Positions 3,240 to 12,832 of a stretch of 64,000 nt of DNA are shown here, in pieces; position 1 is the stretch's first letter, and every line of letters starts with the position of its first letter. The stretch lies in assembly GCA_025890175.1 (NCBI GenBank), contig JANPYM010000004.1, forward strand, positions 1,805,134-1,869,133. The letters are read 5' to 3'. This stretch comes from Ciborinia camelliae. Its lineage: Eukaryota; Ascomycota; Leotiomycetes; Helotiales; Sclerotiniaceae. Below the pieces are notes generated by a model, which saw only the letters and a list, made by a program, of their open reading frames with translations, made no database searches and had not been told where the DNA came from. A program made the position numbers and the translations under genes.

Positions 3240-4773
3240 CTATCTTTCTTCGGTCTCTGCTACCAAACTGGAAATATCCTCCAACCCATTCGCAGTGGTG
3301 TCCTTATCCTTGACCTCGACCTCGCTCTCTGCTACCTTCTCGACATCCATTAACCCGCACTTTACCTTCCAACGAGTGCGACTGTGTCTACCTCCAACGG
3401 TAACATGTAAGCTGGCATCCATTCTTTCTTTCACACTACCAAAGATCCCTCGAGTGGCTTCGGTCAGTGCACCATTGTGTCCTTTGTCTTCATCATTTGT
3501 CTGTAGAATTTGGCTTTGGTGTCTCCTTTCCACGAAAGACATCCATCGAAGAGACTTTCCCCACGTATCAGCGTATTTATATTCACGACCTGGCACTTTG
3601 ATATAGTCACCAAGCTGAAGTTCGCGAAGTGTGGGTAGTCCTTCGACCACTCCTCTCACAATCTCATCAACCAGATCCTCAGCACTCTCAAGCTGAGGAT
3701 CACCGAAACTAACATCCCAAAATGAATTCTTGTAGTGTGGCTGTTCATCCTTGTTATGAATGGTAAGTTTCCGAAAGTCTGTGCATACTCCTCGCAGAAT
3801 GGCGGTGTAGATCGGCAATAGTTCTCGAAATCCAACATGTTTGTTGTCTTGATCGTCAACAGGATGATATGACACCCTGAAATACCCATCAATCTTGATG
3901 TCTCTGAGAAACGAACTATTTCTTGGCCCGATGATTCTCATGAAACGGATAAGTGGATCCTTGCAAAAGAATTTAGGATGTCGACACTTCCAACAAAAGA
4001 GCTTCTCGATGGCCCCTCTCAGCTGGCCGTTACTAATAGCTACTCCATTGTCACTTATCAAACCTGGGATGTCTAATGGCATCTCTTTCAGCTCCTGAAA
4101 TTCGATGTAGTTGATGTGAAATGCATACGAATTTTCCCCATAAAGAATAAGAGCACATTCGTGTTCGATTTGTTGACAGGTTTGCATAATATTCACGGAA
4201 TCCCAACCAAATGGAACTAAAGGAATTTTGGCTCTGTTGATAATTTGTGCGCCATAGTTTTTCCGGTAGTGTACATTGCATTGCACCATATCCTCGGAGT
4301 CGGTGAGTATAGTGGCTTCTTTTTCGACATCGTCCGTATCGATATTGCCACTAGGACCCAACGTGCCGATCTGAATCATTTTTTGCTGTTCCATAGTCGG
4401 TTTTGTGGTCCATGAGATAAATCTCATCATCGGATACTCATTACTGATATATGGAACGTTACAGTGATTCTTGCCATGGTCGGGGTATTGGTGCCAATGA
4501 TATGCAAACTTGTTATGGCTTGTATCGGTATAGTACGAGTAATTGTATCGACCTCCCATTCTATATGGCTGGCGATAAATGTACCGTCCTGTTGGTGATA
4601 TTGTCACAGGCTTCAAAAGTATGTATCGCCAGATTTTGTCTCGGATCTCTGAATAATCTATTAGCATAGCAAGGTTTTAAGCTGGGAATTTACATACCAC
4701 GTGGTAACCTCTCAAGGAGAAAACATATTGTACTGATGCCCCATCTTTCTTCGATTAAGGATGTAGAATCCAT
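3240..4773 (-). CDS. 2EXR/DUF7730-like protein, tandem paralogue 1
   Basis: Proposed as complement(3240..4657, 4698..4773), 497 aa. The 40-nt intron (GTATGT...TAG) joins an upstream ATG exon so that LLERLPRDYSEIRDKIWRYILL is continuous; a start at 4667 would lose the LxRLP part. A second 40-nt intron occurs in the metallopeptidase gene, so this length is credible here. The N-terminal LPxEIRxxIW element and the later ILYGENSYAF element are typical of the large fungal 2EXR/DUF7730 group, whose function is mostly unknown. The C-terminal block LPTLRELQLGDY...LRWMSFVERR recurs in the next gene (6178..7429), so the two are tandem paralogues on the same strand. There is no signal peptide or membrane segment. 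The acidic tail is low complexity. Confidence 0.7.
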
Positions 4774-6177: not shown

Positions 6178-7429
6178 CTATCGTTTCGAACTTGCTTCTA
6201 CCACTACATGGTTCTTGGCACGTTGTTCAACGAAACTCATCCACTTCAAAGCCTGTCTCCATTCATCATTCGGCTGTATACGGGGTATTATCTTACTACC
6301 AGAGACACCCGGATCATAACCACAACCTGCTGGCACATATTTATACTGGCCTAGTTGCAGTTTCCGAAGATGCGGAAGCCCATGAACGAGCTTCTCTACG
6401 GATTCGCTTATTTCCTTGTCCCTGTCAGTCTTTGGTGGCCCCAGCTTGTTTAATTGAGGATAACCTAGGTCGCCATCATGCAAAATTATTGTGTGAATAT
6501 TCTTGCATGCTTCCTTGAGAATGATGGTATATATCGGAAGAAGGTCATGAAGTCCGACTGGTTGCGATCCTGTTCTCTTCCATTTCCCGATAATCCAGTT
6601 CCATCTTCCTTGAATGATAATATTCGTGATCTGTGAAGCATTTTTGCGGCCAATCTCCATGAAAAATCTAGTTAATGGGTCTTGGGAAATGAACTTCGAT
6701 CGATGTTGATTCTGTTCAAAGATCTTGGCAACCGAGCGGGTGATTTGTTGGTCACTTGGTAGTGAACCGTCGGTGCGACGGCGACCTGGTATTTCATTGG
6801 GCTTATGCGAGAGATCTTCAATGGTGACTACACTTTGAGGTTCACAGAAGGGTGAAAGACCGCGTGTATCGAACAAAAAGGAATTCTCTCCGTAGAGTAA
6901 AGTGACTCCCAATGCCCCAAGCTGTTTGCATGAACGAAGAATCGCAACACCGGATATCGCAGTCACAGGAATAACTGACCGATGGATAATTTGATCACCG
7001 AAATCTTTGCGACTGTGGATAAAACCTTCAATCTCTTGGCCGTTTTGAAGAATGGTGGTAAGATGATTGTTGCCAGCTTCAATGAGTCTGGCCTCTTCTT
7101 TGGTAGGAGCAGCAGCCCAGAAGGTCTGTATATGTGTGCTTCCAATATTTTTTGGAAGAAGATCTCTTTCGTATTGTTCTTGACGTGCATCACTCCATTG
7201 ATATCGGTAATCCAATTTTGGGGGATCACCGAAAGCCCCCTTTTCTCGAACAATCCCCGGCATAAGGTGAGCCGGTCGGACTAAAAGCTCTCTTAAGATC
7301 TTCTTTAAGACATCTAAAAACAGGTCAGGTAATTGACACATCATGAGGGACAAATGGCTTACTTGTCGGAAGATCTAAAATTGTTTTGCTCCTTTTAACA
7401 ACACTTTTATTCTTCAAGGAAGGCTTCAT
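6178..7429 (-). CDS. 2EXR/DUF7730-like protein, tandem paralogue 2
   Basis: Proposed as complement(6178..7313, 7363..7429), 400 aa. The 49-nt intron (GTAAGC...TTTTTAG, phase 1) joins ILDLPT to NVLKKILRELLVRP. This restores the family's N-terminal LPxxVxxxIL element and gives a clean ATG, which I prefer over the in-frame start at 7353. Shared features with the 3240..4773 gene are LLYGENSFLF, a middle block DPLTRFFMEIG (compare DPLIRFMRIIG) and the end block LPHLRKLQLGQY...LKWMSFVEQR. It has no signal peptide or membrane segment. Family function is not established. The pair sits between an MFS pump and the RiPP-like cluster, but I see no sign that it belongs to either. Confidence 0.75.
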
Positions 7430-8726: not shown

Positions 8727-9169
8727 TCACTTGTCCTTTTTAGCGGCCTTCGTATAATACCAAGTATCCTGAGGTCCTTGTGTCCCATCAACAGATACTA
8801 GATTGCGTTTATCTTTTTTGGCGGCCTTCGTATAATACCACGTATCCTGCGGCCCCTGTGTCCCATCAACCGACACCAAATTACGTTTCTCCTCTCCGAA
8901 AGCCTTAACATACCCCCACGTCTTACGATTTTCTTCCTCGTCAACAGTAACCGGAGTTCGTTGCTCAATAGCCTTAACATAAGCCCATTGCTGGCGAGTT
9001 TGTGCGGCGTCAACAGTGATGTCTCGCTCCTGAAGTCCAAGTTCGCGCTGGAAGCAATTGTTAGTTAGCAGTTTTGTAATGTTGGTTTATCGAAATAACT
9101 TGCCTCTGTGGGAATTGGCGAGGCAATGCTGGTTGCGACTAACATCGCGATAATGCTTGAGATTCTCAT
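8727..9169 (-). CDS. Secreted repeat precursor peptide, dikaritin/KEP-type RiPP candidate
   Basis: Proposed as complement(8727..9047, 9104..9169), 128 aa. The intron is GC-AG with a near-perfect donor (AG|GCAAGT), 56 nt, phase 0. Exon 1 encodes almost exactly a signal peptide (residues 1 to ~17) plus a short PIPTE segment. The rest is four tandem repeats of about 23-26 residues. Each has a (I/V)(T/S)VD element followed by a core: WAYVKA (43-48), WGYVKA (66-71), WYYTKA (92-97) and WYYTKA (118-123). Units 2/3 and 3/4 are separated by KR (76-77 and 102-103), the Kex2 cleavage signal; unit 1 ends in QR. This is the layout of UstA-type precursors of ustiloxin, phomopsin and asperipin (family knowledge). 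Two UstYa-family genes follow at 10305 and 11773. The product and cyclisation pattern are unknown. Confidence 0.85.
8730..9031 (-). repeat. Four tandem core-peptide repeats in the precursor gene
   Basis: The repeats are units of 75-78 nt. Copies 3 (8805..8882) and 4 (8730..8804) encode the same 25 residues. They differ at 12 nucleotide positions that I count, all synonymous. The stretch over W-Y-Y-T-K-A is unchanged in DNA except the last Ala codon. Copies 1 and 2 are more diverged but keep (I/V)TVD and W-x-Y-V-K-A. Confidence 0.9.
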
Positions 9170-10304
9170 GGTTGGAAAGATGCTTTTTTGACTTGGTTTT
9201 AAGGGGAAATGACTTTGATGCGCTATAAATCGATGAGTTTATCCGCTTGGGGAAGTGTGTCGCGCGAATGATGCTGCAGTAATGTCACAGACAGTTGGGA
9301 ACATCGTTTTATATATCCATTCTTCCACGTTTGCATTCCTACCCTCCCGTAACTTTCCCAATAATCATTAAAGAGGATAACAGCTAAAGTCTTACTGTAC
9401 TCGCAATCGATATTCTGCACTCATGACACCGCCATGCCCCGAGATCACCTTCATAGCTATCACCGAAGACGACCTAAAATGTGTCAAATCAATCTACGCC
9501 TTTCCTCCACCGACGATCCAGACAAACGCCTCTGAAATCCACCCAACTCTCCTTAAACCCAGCCAACACAACCGACAACCTGATCATTTGAGACTAGATC
9601 AAATAACATCGGCGACCAAGCACATCATAAAAATGGTCTCGAGCAAAAAGCTAAAGAAAGCCCATCATCTATTTCTACATTTGAGTAGCTGAAGTCCTGT
9701 TCCAAAGTTCTTTTCGAATATCACAGGGTTGCATGAAAATAAGCTTGATTGTAAGGTTACCTACCTACCTACGCAGGTGAGACTTACGTGTAGTGTAGGT
9801 GGGGTCAGGACTAGGGGTCTCGGCAGTGGTGTTGATGACGGCTGAATGCAGGGGCTTGTGTTTAGGTAAATGATAGAAGTTCTAGAAGTGCGCAATGTCG
9901 GTGTGATGCTACGTAATCAGATTGGGCATCGATGGCATTTTATGATGGATAAATGTGTGTTTGATTTGGGTATCTTGTGATGAACGTGATTTCGCTCGCG
10001 TGATTGATGGTTTGTGGAGGGACTATCTTGACTATCTTGGTGATTCCATGCGCACGGCAAAACAGAAATTTGTTTTAAGTTGTAGAAAAAGAGTTTGTTA
10101 GAGAGTACAAAGATATCTCAAAATTGGTCGGTTAGATCATACGTCTGCTGTCCTTGTGATTATGGCTATAGAAATTCCGTGACAAATTTTAAGCAAGCAC
10201 TTGCGTGACAAAGAAATATTTCCGCCACAACAGGAATACTGATCGCTTATTGCGTTCAATACATGTTCCATCTAGAGAAACCGATACTACATCATACTTT
10301 CCAC
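9170..10304. other. Intergenic inside the RiPP-like locus
   Basis: Holds the promoter of the precursor gene at its left end and the 3' flank of the first UstYa-like gene at its right end. The plus-strand frame at 9423..9692 has no recognisable domain. No tyrosinase, methyltransferase or peptidase is present here. Confidence 0.5.
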
Positions 10305-11257
10305 TCACAAATCATCCTCCACCTTAACAAAGCGATCAAACACCTCCACACGATGTTCCCTCGCCCACGCAACAATCATTTCAAAATCCCTACACGTATG
10401 AGCAACCTCCGCATAAACCTTCGCCTGAGGCCTTTCCCCCTCATTTCCCGGATCCCATATCCAACTCAGTGGAGTCACATCCGCCGAACACATGAGCGAT
10501 TGTCTAAGATCATCTATACAATGTTCGATATGAGAAAGTTCCAGAATGGGATCCGAAGTATTCAAAGAATCGGCGGTTGATATTTGATCCGGTGTGAGAT
10601 AGATGCGACGACGGATTTGGTTCAGACAGTGGAGTTGGTGGAATACGTTGAGGGAGATGACGTATTGGCCTGCGTCGCCGGGGATGGGAACGGTTTTGTT
10701 GGCGAGTTGGGAGGCGGATGATTTTGGGATTCGGCTTACTCCGACTTTGATTCGCTGTTAGTAACTTGATTTTGTTTGGGAATATTGGTATTCTCACAAT
10801 TGTATAAGTCAGTCCATGCTTCATCACGTTCGGGTGTTGATGGGCCAATGTATTTGGTTCTTCCTTGTCCGAAGCCACTGGTAAAGACGACATCCTTTCG
10901 GTGTACCAAATGTTGCACTGGCGCTGTGTAATATTATTGTTAGTTGGAAACAAAAATGTGTGGCAGAAATTATGAAGGGATTGCTGTTAGCAAGAACGTA
11001 CAATAAAGATGGCCAGTCTCCCACGCCGTAATAGATTCTTTTGCTTGGTATGATTGAAAAAGTGCAGAGCAAAGAATAACAATGATAAACCAATGGAAAA
11101 GAATTATGATTTTGGTTCGTATTTTTCCCTCTTGAAGAGAACCTACGGAATGTTCTTCTAGGTCTGAATGGAGGAGGAATGACTCGCTATACCGAGTTTC
11201 AGTCGAGTGTCTATCCATTAAAAGTTCGCTAGACATTTTGGAAGACTTGAGACTCAT
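10305..11257 (-). CDS. UstYa-family (DUF3328) oxidase-like protein A
   Basis: Proposed as complement(10305..10744, 10798..10923, 11002..11257), 273 aa. All junctions are GT-AG and in phase, with introns of 78 and 53 nt. It has a short cytoplasmic N-terminus, one membrane anchor at about residues 50-67, then a lumenal domain. The YSPVQ element is at 85-89 and [13 protein letters not shown] follows. FGVSRIPKS comes after the second intron. The first signature is FHQLHC (HxxHC at 163-167) and the second is [12 protein letters not shown] (from 202). These are the two HxxHC/HC motifs of UstYa and UstYb, membrane oxidases that crosslink Tyr-containing core peptides in ustiloxin-type pathways (family knowledge). 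The start at 11257 is the first ATG. The gene is divergent from UstYa-like B and upstream of the precursor on the same strand. Confidence 0.92.
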
Positions 11258-11772
11258 CGAATAAAAGTCTTGATGCCTCTCCAAGATCTGTTTTGCGATA
11301 ATGATTGAAAGGTTTTACGCACTCCCTACTATGCTGGACCCCTTCAATATTTATTGAGAGCAAAGATCAAAATGGGATATTCCTCATCAGCCCTATATGG
11401 CTGCTTGTGCCACGTAACATCCCCTCCTCACGACTTGCCAAAAGGCTAGTTGATCTCGCTTCTTTCATCTCAGTAATCTCACGTAATTGTTGTGGTTGTG
11501 GTACAGTATCAGCTCACACATATCTTTGTCAGAATTTAGTCACGCAATTAGTGGGAGTGAGCGGGGACTTGGCAAAGAAACGTATACCTTGGCGAGCAAG
11601 GGGTGTATATTCGGACTCACCGATATCAATTTTCAGGAAATTTCTGCTGCGCTATAAGATCTTTCATATATTTAGTTTAGAGTCCTGAAGATAAGGTATA
11701 GATAGGTGGACCTTTTAAACTCTTGATATCCTGATTAAACCTACTGGGTTGAAATATTGAAAAATTCTCACC
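11258..11772. promoter_or_regulatory. Divergent promoter between the two UstYa-like genes
   Basis: A 515-bp gap separates the start codons of two genes that point away from each other, so both promoters must lie here. The frame at 11305..11688 inside it has no domain and is probably chance. I do not see an unambiguous factor site. Confidence 0.6.
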
Positions 11773-12832
11773 ATGAATCTCAAATTAGAAATCGAAAAGT
11801 ATCTCCCTCTACAGACAAATTCAGAAGACGAGGAGTCGTCGGGTCTCATTCATCAAACTGAAAACAATGGACCCCAACTGATCGGAAATCAACTCAAAAA
11901 CAAAGGATTTCTGTTGTCATTTGTGGTTGTTCTAATCACTTCCACCGCAATAGCTTTTATTCTCGGATGGAAACTACATCCCAAATACCCTGATAGATTT
12001 TCAGATAACACATGGGGTAAGGCAATCCACCACCGAATTTTGTATCGATCAAGAATATCTACTGATCACCATCCCATCGTTTCCAGATGCTGTAAAACCA
12101 GCAATCTCCTACCATGAGCAAACGTTCGAGCCTCGCTTCGAGGAGAAAAATGAATACATGGGAGAACCCAATGATCACTTAGATGACCTATGGTATGAAC
12201 TAACAGCCAGTGAGTCAAACGTGCCTGCATTGAATTTACATCAAGAATACCATCTAACGATGAATATGAAGTGCGCAATCTAGCTGCCGATTACAACGCC
12301 ATCCAGAAAGCAAATAAAACCAAGAATATAGTGCAATGGCCTGGGACAGATAAATATCAGGTTACTTTGGAAGCTTTTCATCAGCTTCATTGTTTGGTGA
12401 GCTATCCCAGAAATGCCACCCGTGAAAGACTTTTGAGTTTAGGAGACTAACCATGTATTTAGAACTATATTCGAATGTACACATTTATGGATCACTATTC
12501 ACAAATCGATCCCGATATGAAGAACGAGACGCCCGAAGAGAGATTCGATCACAAAGGTAAATGAAAAAAGATTCTTTACTCTTTTCTGCTTCTCATCACT
12601 AATTCGAAGCACATTAGATCATTGCGTAGAAATGCTCCGTCAAAGACTTCAATGTAACCCCGATCTCTCGATAATCACATCACATTGGCATGAGGGCCAA
12701 GATTTGCCTGATGTAGATTTGGCAACTAATCATGTGTGTATCGATTGGTTCAAGTTCTCTGTCTGGGTGAGGGAAAATGTTGTGCATTCGCCGCCTATCA
12801 AGAAGCCTCAGGGGTATGTGGTGGAAGTTTAG
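11773..12832 (+). CDS. UstYa-family (DUF3328) oxidase-like protein B
   Basis: Proposed as join(11773..12016, 12087..12209, 12272..12396, 12463..12556, 12618..12832), 266 aa; all introns are GT-AG and 61-70 nt. The membrane anchor is at about 45-66 (FLLSFVVVLITSTAIAFILGW). FHQLHC is at 158-163 and the second motif HCVEMLRQ starts at 197, both in the positions expected for UstYa proteins. The second intron needs comment. The obvious short option ending at 12245 breaks the frame, and a donor at 12193 would make a stop. Donor GTGAGT at 12210 with acceptor at 12271 and branch CTAAC at 12254 restores the frame, at the cost of a shorter loop before the first motif. It probably acts with protein A on the precursor at 8727..9169; that is inference from proximity. 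Confidence 0.88.

Follow-up and report, generated by a model that had tools for sequence, protein, structure and literature searches.

A 64,000-nucleotide window of the Ciborinia camelliae genome (Leotiomycetes, Helotiales, Sclerotiniaceae; C22:1805134-1869133, in an assembly of 46.2 Mb and 27 contigs) contains three genes within 4.1 kb: one encoding a small secretory precursor with repeated W-x-Y-x-K-A cores, and two encoding UstYa-family (DUF3328) oxidases that we call UstYa-A and UstYa-B. We consider the locus very probably a minimal dikaritin-like cluster, a UstYa pair plus a repeat precursor, for a ribosomally synthesized and post-translationally modified peptide (RiPP), in a fungus that is listed with necrotrophic plant pathogens (PMC7060139). 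Coordinates below are those of the window, the whole stretch analysed.

The precursor gene (8727..9169, - strand) is modelled as exon 1 (9104-9169), a 56 nt intron (9048-9103) and exon 2 (8727-9047), which together encode 128 aa. The intron is of the GC-AG type, with donor GCAAGT, a branch-like CTAAC and acceptor CAG. Exon 1 encodes a hydrophobic stretch, the putative signal peptide MRISSIIAMLVATSIA, with SPIPTE following its presumed cleavage point; this assignment was judged from hydropathy and from alignment to a relative in Paramyrothecium foliicola, whose fused protein model P0061 (described below) contributes ...LLAFTATASPLPIE opposite the hydrophobic region. Four repeats follow on the same strand: repeat 1 (R1), ITVDAAQTRQQWAYVKAIEQR at 8958..9020, with core WAYVKA (8970-8987); R2, TPVTVDEEENRKTWGYVKAFGEEKR at 8883..8957, with core WGYVKA (8901-8918); R3, NLVSVDGTQGPQDTWYYTKAAKKDKR at 8805..8882, with core WYYTKA (8823-8840); and R4, NLVSVDGTQGPQDTWYYTKAAKKDK at 8730..8804, again with core WYYTKA (8745-8762). 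The units share a layout in which V-[TS]-V-D (I-T-V-D in R1) is followed by 7 or 8 residues and then by W-x-Y-[VT]-K-A. KR occurs at two of the three junctions, R2/R3 and R3/R4; R1 terminates in QR, so that the R1/R2 junction reads ...AIEQR/TPV, and the last unit, R4, lacks KR. The chain qualifies as a Kex2-processed repeat protein (KEP), with two identical repeats bounded by KR, a third similar one ending in KR and a first ending in QR.

The precursor is an intact, real gene under constraint. R3 and R4 are identical as protein over 25 aa and differ at 12 of 75 nucleotides, in 11 codons, every one of the 12 differences being synonymous, an outcome that random placement of 12 changes never produced in 100,000 trials. 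The DNA pattern TGGNNNTAYNNNAARGC, which encodes W-x-Y-x-K-A, occurs four times in the 64 kb, all four inside this gene, against a shuffle mean of 0.15 and no shuffle among 100 with four or more. With the window itself as control for the background rate of repeat precursors, the precursor was the sole open reading frame (ORF), among 506 of at least 50 aa, to pass a scan for repeats with at least two [KR]R sites, and 20 dinucleotide-block shuffles of the window gave no passes. The calculated [M+H]+ of WYYTKA is 831.4036 unmodified and 829.3879 at -2 H, with the proviso that the mature length may differ.

At a distance of 1,135 bases from the precursor start, measured to its own stop codon, lies UstYa-A (273 aa, shortened to 266 aa if translation begins at the second Met, 11236; 10305..11257, - strand; exons 11002-11257, 10798-10923 and 10305-10744), and beyond it UstYa-B (266 aa; 11773..12832, + strand; exons 11773-12016, 12087-12209, 12272-12396, 12463-12556 and 12618-12832). 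The two UstYa-family genes are divergent and intact, and both encode the full HxxHC(x)nHxxHC: Pfam PF11807 matches them at E = 4.9e-47 and 3.4e-47, the motifs are HQLHC and HIEHC at residues 163 and 199 of UstYa-A and HQLHC and HKDHC at residues 159 and 194 of UstYa-B, and each protein has one N-terminal hydrophobic stretch. Several splicing choices for UstYa-A tied in scoring, and the model chosen is the one equal to the public C. camelliae protein P0001 (NHQ30_004020; 100% identity, 97% of query covered). The public counterpart of UstYa-B, P0052 (NHQ30_004021), agrees with our model up to the last intron, where it stops (197 aa), short of the second HxxHC motif; the missing part is window 12557-12832, and the last exon is backed by relatives whose alignment continues through it. 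The H and C of both motifs are invariant in all 12 rows of an alignment built from 12 of 51 UstYa-A matches, and 11 of the 12 rows of the UstYa-B alignment (11 of 12 matches used) retain the second motif, the exception being the truncated P0052.

Much of this had been anticipated by an initial annotation made from the letters of the window. Its 128-aa secretory precursor with four repeats and cores WAYVKA, WGYVKA and WYYTKA (twice) is confirmed by the splice model and repeat mapping, and its two UstYa-family genes with both Cys/His motifs within 4 kb are borne out by the Pfam scores and the doubled HxxHC; its KR sites between repeats stand at R2/R3 and R3/R4 but not at R1/R2.

Among UstYa-A relatives, identity is highest with Colletotrichum sojae, at 63% across 65% of the query, and with Tricladium, at 56% across 69%. 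Neither Botrytis nor Sclerotinia appears among the names shown for the 51 matches of the word-based UstYa-A search, some of them unnamed or with shortened names; a lineage-limited presence of UstYa-A within the Sclerotiniaceae is only suggested by these matches. No UstYa relative was confirmed among 49 pattern matches in bacterial and archaeal contigs or 137 in viral contigs, and a sequence search of solved structures with UstYa-A returned none at E <= 1. In a low-confidence AlphaFold model of UstYa-A computed from 12 sequences, both HxxHC stretches lie in helices.

The precursor itself seems to be unannotated in the protein database, because a search there missed it yet found both oxidases of the same genome: 297 candidates gave none at E <= 1, the gene's own product included, within a length range that P0061 (456 aa) exceeds. 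A search of its own genome for paralogues at E <= 10 returned only the gene's own two exons. Pfam DUF3931 on the precursor fell under its cut-off, and was taken as noise of repetitive sequence.

A precursor of the same kind occurs in P. foliicola, a member of the Sordariomycetes. The 456-aa protein P0061, publicly named cyclochlorotine biosynthesis protein O, a name silent on its precursor part, has a UstYa domain at 40-232, then a signal-peptide-like stretch, then seven repeat units, and is apparently two neighbouring genes, oxidase and repeat precursor, fused in annotation. It surfaced via the UstYa-B search only, with 44% identity over 66% of UstYa-B. The seven near-identical units, N[GN]VDAAATRAGWLYx[KR][EK]R, match the Ciborinia unit VDAAQTRQQWAYVK; W-x-Y-x-K fits six of them (unit 1 carries Arg instead of Lys) and was found in P0061 alone among 63 collected proteins. 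Five of the seven units end in KER or RER, the other two in KKR. Pfam VasX_N and DUF2198 scored slightly over their cut-offs on these repeats, and were likewise set aside as noise.

Alignment of the P0061 tail with the Ciborinia precursor (signal region plus repeats) gave a local score of 100, against a maximum of 92 when the mature part of the precursor was shuffled 20,000 times. A profile of the seven P. foliicola units, run against 8,303 ORFs from 325,543 bases of collected DNA (overlapping loci included), ranked the Ciborinia precursor first at E = 0.064 (0.016 for a copy truncated where a locus ends), the next unrelated ORF having E = 1.8; in reverse, a profile of the Ciborinia repeats placed P0061 first of the 63 collected proteins at E = 8.8e-8, followed by 2.9. 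Judged from these comparisons, the core and its upstream stretch, VD...W-x-Y-x-[K/R], are conserved across two fungal classes, and because P. foliicola has the same kind of precursor, the W-x-Y-x-K type seems to be a conserved branch within a known class of peptides. The pairing of oxidases may extend as far: the UstYa-A homologue (P0009) and the UstYa-B homologue of P. foliicola report longest contigs of the same size (507,297), as do the UstYa-A and UstYa-B homologues of Penicilliopsis zonata (17,174), an indirect sign that the A/B pair is linked in both of these fungi too.

Within C. camelliae, PF11807 gave 58 exon-level matches, which we grouped by eye into about 31 loci. In a survey of part of these, with flanks not always reaching 5 kb each side, at least five other UstYa loci carried repeat precursors that have dibasic spacing and other cores and that lie 1.3 to 2.8 kb from the closest UstYa match; such clusters are therefore not rare in this genome. 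Sclerotinia sclerotiorum is reported to have four adjacent DUF3328 pairs (PMC6941272), so candidate RiPP loci have already been noticed in the Sclerotiniaceae. The individual loci observed were L048 (C9:8000-16000), where the closest UstYa match is about 1.6 kb from a precursor built of 12-aa SADEDLIEQYKR repeats; L036 (C5:526300-536200), with units like DTNSNGHRINEAVDDGVPDTHYKR about 2.8 kb away; L041 (C1:1744300-1754200), where a secretory-looking protein has units like ASPNVETILPDPGEIGSPNSHNFAIGKR about 1.8 kb away; L002 with L052 (C9 near 129 kb), where a group of UstYa matches lies about 1.3 kb from three units resembling GDAKEALNAYQMFSEIERR; and L006 with L051 (C26 near 312 kb), with two units of type RDSGAIVVVDAPVVNEIEKR about 1.4 kb away. 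A sixth, L040 (C24:1310400-1320300), is a weak two-unit candidate in which YVRNPLSD is repeated 0.8 kb from a UstYa match, with a major facilitator superfamily (MFS) match in the same stretch.

Around the cluster in the window, no transporter, protease or regulator was identified in the few searches made for these, that for MFS transporters having scored 9 of 432 candidates. An 89-aa open frame between the precursor and UstYa-A (9424-9690, +) has no Pfam match, nor do two long open frames on the - strand at 3240-4676 and 6178-7374. The latter are alike by eye (LLYGENS..., and ...LRELQLG against LRKLQLG...) and are possibly paralogues.

UstYa/DUF3328 is the class-defining enzyme under a broad definition of dikaritins (PMC12048977), and the locus presents both a UstYa-family protein with two HxxHC motifs, twice over, and a secretory precursor with repeated cores near the UstYa genes. 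The dikaritin-type assignment made in the initial annotation accordingly has good support from domains, motifs and coding evidence and from the matching P. foliicola precursor joined to a UstYa-B type. Its interpretation as a whole, which extends to a cyclic peptide with Trp and Tyr in the core, is partly supported. The W-x-Y core is probably modified oxidatively by the UstYa-A/UstYa-B pair. That the pair makes a Trp-Tyr link in particular is a possibility we would rate at a little short of even; we favour it because, by analogy, the W-[A/G/Y/L]-Y layout resembles the cores of ustiloxin, phomopsin and asperipin-2a.

In the pathway we propose, the precursor would enter the secretory pathway through its signal peptide and meet, in the lumen, two membrane-anchored copper oxidases. 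The model for these is CctR, a UstYa-family enzyme reported as an O2-dependent, membrane-bound dimer with two coppers per monomer, whose activity is abolished by mutation of the motif (PMC12435403). UstYa-A and UstYa-B would recognize the VD-x7/8 stretch ahead of each core and oxidize W-x-Y-x-K, the likeliest chemistry being a ring between Trp(i) and Tyr(i+2) that leaves the middle residue free (A, G or Y; L in P. foliicola). The bond might, for example, join the Tyr phenol oxygen to the Trp beta-carbon, comparable to the Tyr-O to Phe-C-beta link of asperipin-2a. Peptides would then be freed by cleavage after basic residues, by Kex2 at KR and by another step at QR; the Lys at +4 and the VD preceding the core, both conserved, may have a part in recognition or cleavage.

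A number of results weigh against this interpretation. Tyrosinase has 12 matches in the genome and S41 peptidase 4 (peptidases were searched as S41 only), with none of either on C22, the contig of the window; in having no tyrosinase match on C22 the locus departs from the five-gene definition of dikaritins by Ding et al., as quoted in PMC12048977. One of the three repeat junctions has no dibasic site. The AlphaFold model of UstYa-A is of low confidence (mean predicted local distance difference test score, pLDDT, 64.6). No precursor relative was found in the protein database at E <= 1, in the length range given above, and an own-genome search with the P. foliicola tail, in which 3 candidates were scored after a loose first pass, missed the window precursor and returned a sole, unrelated match at E = 3.65. 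Finally, a more stringent comparison, column permutation applied to six of the P. foliicola units, reached the observed score of 76 in 75 of 20,000 trials, so the similarity of the repeats, taken alone, is significant but not overwhelming.

The pair could also act on the peptide without closing a Trp-Tyr ring, through hydroxylation, desaturation, a link from Tyr to Lys or to Val/Thr, or separate sites for each oxidase, and we regard this as a substantial if minority possibility. The UstYa family has been implicated in hydroxylation and halogenation as well as macrocyclization (PMC12435403), and there are two different oxidases here, whereas AprY alone is proposed to form both rings of asperipin-2a (PMC6514808); moreover the residue at Trp+4 is Lys in all four Ciborinia units, and Lys in six and Arg in one of the seven in P. 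foliicola. What speaks for a ring is the fixed i/i+2 pair around a free middle position, which has a counterpart in the Y-x-I of ustiloxins and phomopsin (YAIG, YVIG, YVIP; PMC7329392) and also resembles F-x-Y in asperipin-2a.

Another reading makes the precursor a linear secreted signal or pheromone-like KEP, with the UstYa genes nearby by accident or for another pathway. Of 7,878 KEPs surveyed, 6,120 have no DUF3328 among the nearest 15 genes (PMC7329392), many KEP peptides have no known modification (PMC9769878), and with 58 exon-level UstYa matches in the genome chance neighbours are possible. We nevertheless think this improbable, given the short distance from precursor to UstYa-A noted above and a matching precursor that in P. 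foliicola, a species from a different class, is joined to a UstYa-B-type gene; nor was an alpha-pheromone core seen by eye. A decaying, silent cluster is slightly more improbable again. It would accord with an array of just four units, the last without KR, and with the lack of an identified transporter, protease or regulator alongside in the few searches made, but all three genes keep open reading frames and good splice sites, and the divergence of R3 and R4 is wholly synonymous. The dikaritin-like reading stays our preferred one. Beyond it, we tentatively suggest an undescribed dikaritin subfamily spanning Leotiomycetes and Sordariomycetes, in which a conserved dicopper A/B pair would cross-link Trp and Tyr (i, i+2) of a W-x-Y-x-K core, directed by VD-x7/8, with release partly at basic sites that are not dibasic.

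As one of its kind, a further repeat precursor is unsurprising, because 7,878 have already been reported, of which 5,318 fall into 838 types and 2,560 lack homologues, a DUF3328 gene lying nearby in 22% (PMC7329392). W-x-Y-x-K is not among the conserved cores that section 10 of PMC6339444 lists. The initial annotation had pointed to no described product with this core, and none was found in literature searched by core strings, by dikaritin and UstYa and by both fungi, a scope that excludes supplementary precursor tables and most subscription papers; the 15 papers matching the core letters were all unrelated, judged by title, and the type may already be catalogued in such supplementary tables. 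The cluster is real and intact, and that its product would carry a new cross-link is plausible. The product of the suggested subfamily would be a UstYa product with cross-linked tryptophan, of which none is reported in the literature searched. Reports of UstYa-family copper oxidases acting in vitro are only recent (PMC12186524; PMC12435403). With its two oxidases and a short, conserved W-x-Y-x-K core preceded by a defined stretch, the cluster makes a convenient test system for paired UstYa enzymes, suited to asking which residues each one oxidizes and whether tryptophan can take part in a cross-link. The precursor also illustrates how such genes go unnoticed, having no protein-database match here and apparently being fused to an oxidase model in P. 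foliicola.

Set beside known systems, the P. foliicola locus is like ours in joining a UstYa-B homologue to VDAAATRAGWLYx[K/R] units, with P0009 as UstYa-A homologue, and unlike it in having seven near-identical units that end in [KR][EK]R, with Leu at mid-core; it is known from a protein model. Epichloecyclins (GigA) share a four-repeat secretory precursor, a Tyr-containing core and, according to a review, a modified Lys, but have a different core and, according to another review, an Ile-Tyr link, the likeness being one of description rather than of sequence. Plant burpitides, in which copper-dependent enzymes cross-link Trp or Tyr in repeated-core precursors, offer a functional analogy, also by description, through another protein family, the BURP domain. 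The core residues 1 and 3 of ustiloxins and phomopsin (Tyr, Ile) are linked while the second varies (PMC7329392), and those clusters resemble this one in having a signal peptide, repeated cores in which two fixed residues flank a free one, and several UstYa-type oxidases; they differ in their Y-x-I core and in their tyrosinase, methyltransferase and peptidase genes, whereas here neither tyrosinase nor S41 peptidase was found on C22. The asperipin-2a cluster of Aspergillus flavus is described as four genes, aprA, aprY, aprT and aprR, with no tyrosinase among those four. Its product (FYYTGY) has ether links from Tyr side chains to beta-carbons (PMC6514808), the Tyr-O to Phe-C-beta link being made by UstYs (PMC12186524). 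That cluster and the Ciborinia one are alike in being small and in having a repeat precursor and UstYa-type oxidase, and WYYTKA resembles FYYTGY (aromatic-x-Tyr-Thr). The Ciborinia locus nevertheless departs from the asperipin-2a type, with its single UstYa gene, reductase, transporter and core FYYTGY, by having two UstYa genes, beside which no reductase or transporter was identified (no search aimed at a reductase was made, and 9 of 432 MFS candidates were scored), and W-x-Y-x-K-A cores, in which Trp replaces Phe and Lys stands at +4. Overall, the three-gene cluster looks minimal, and in make-up nearer to asperipin-2a than to ustiloxin.

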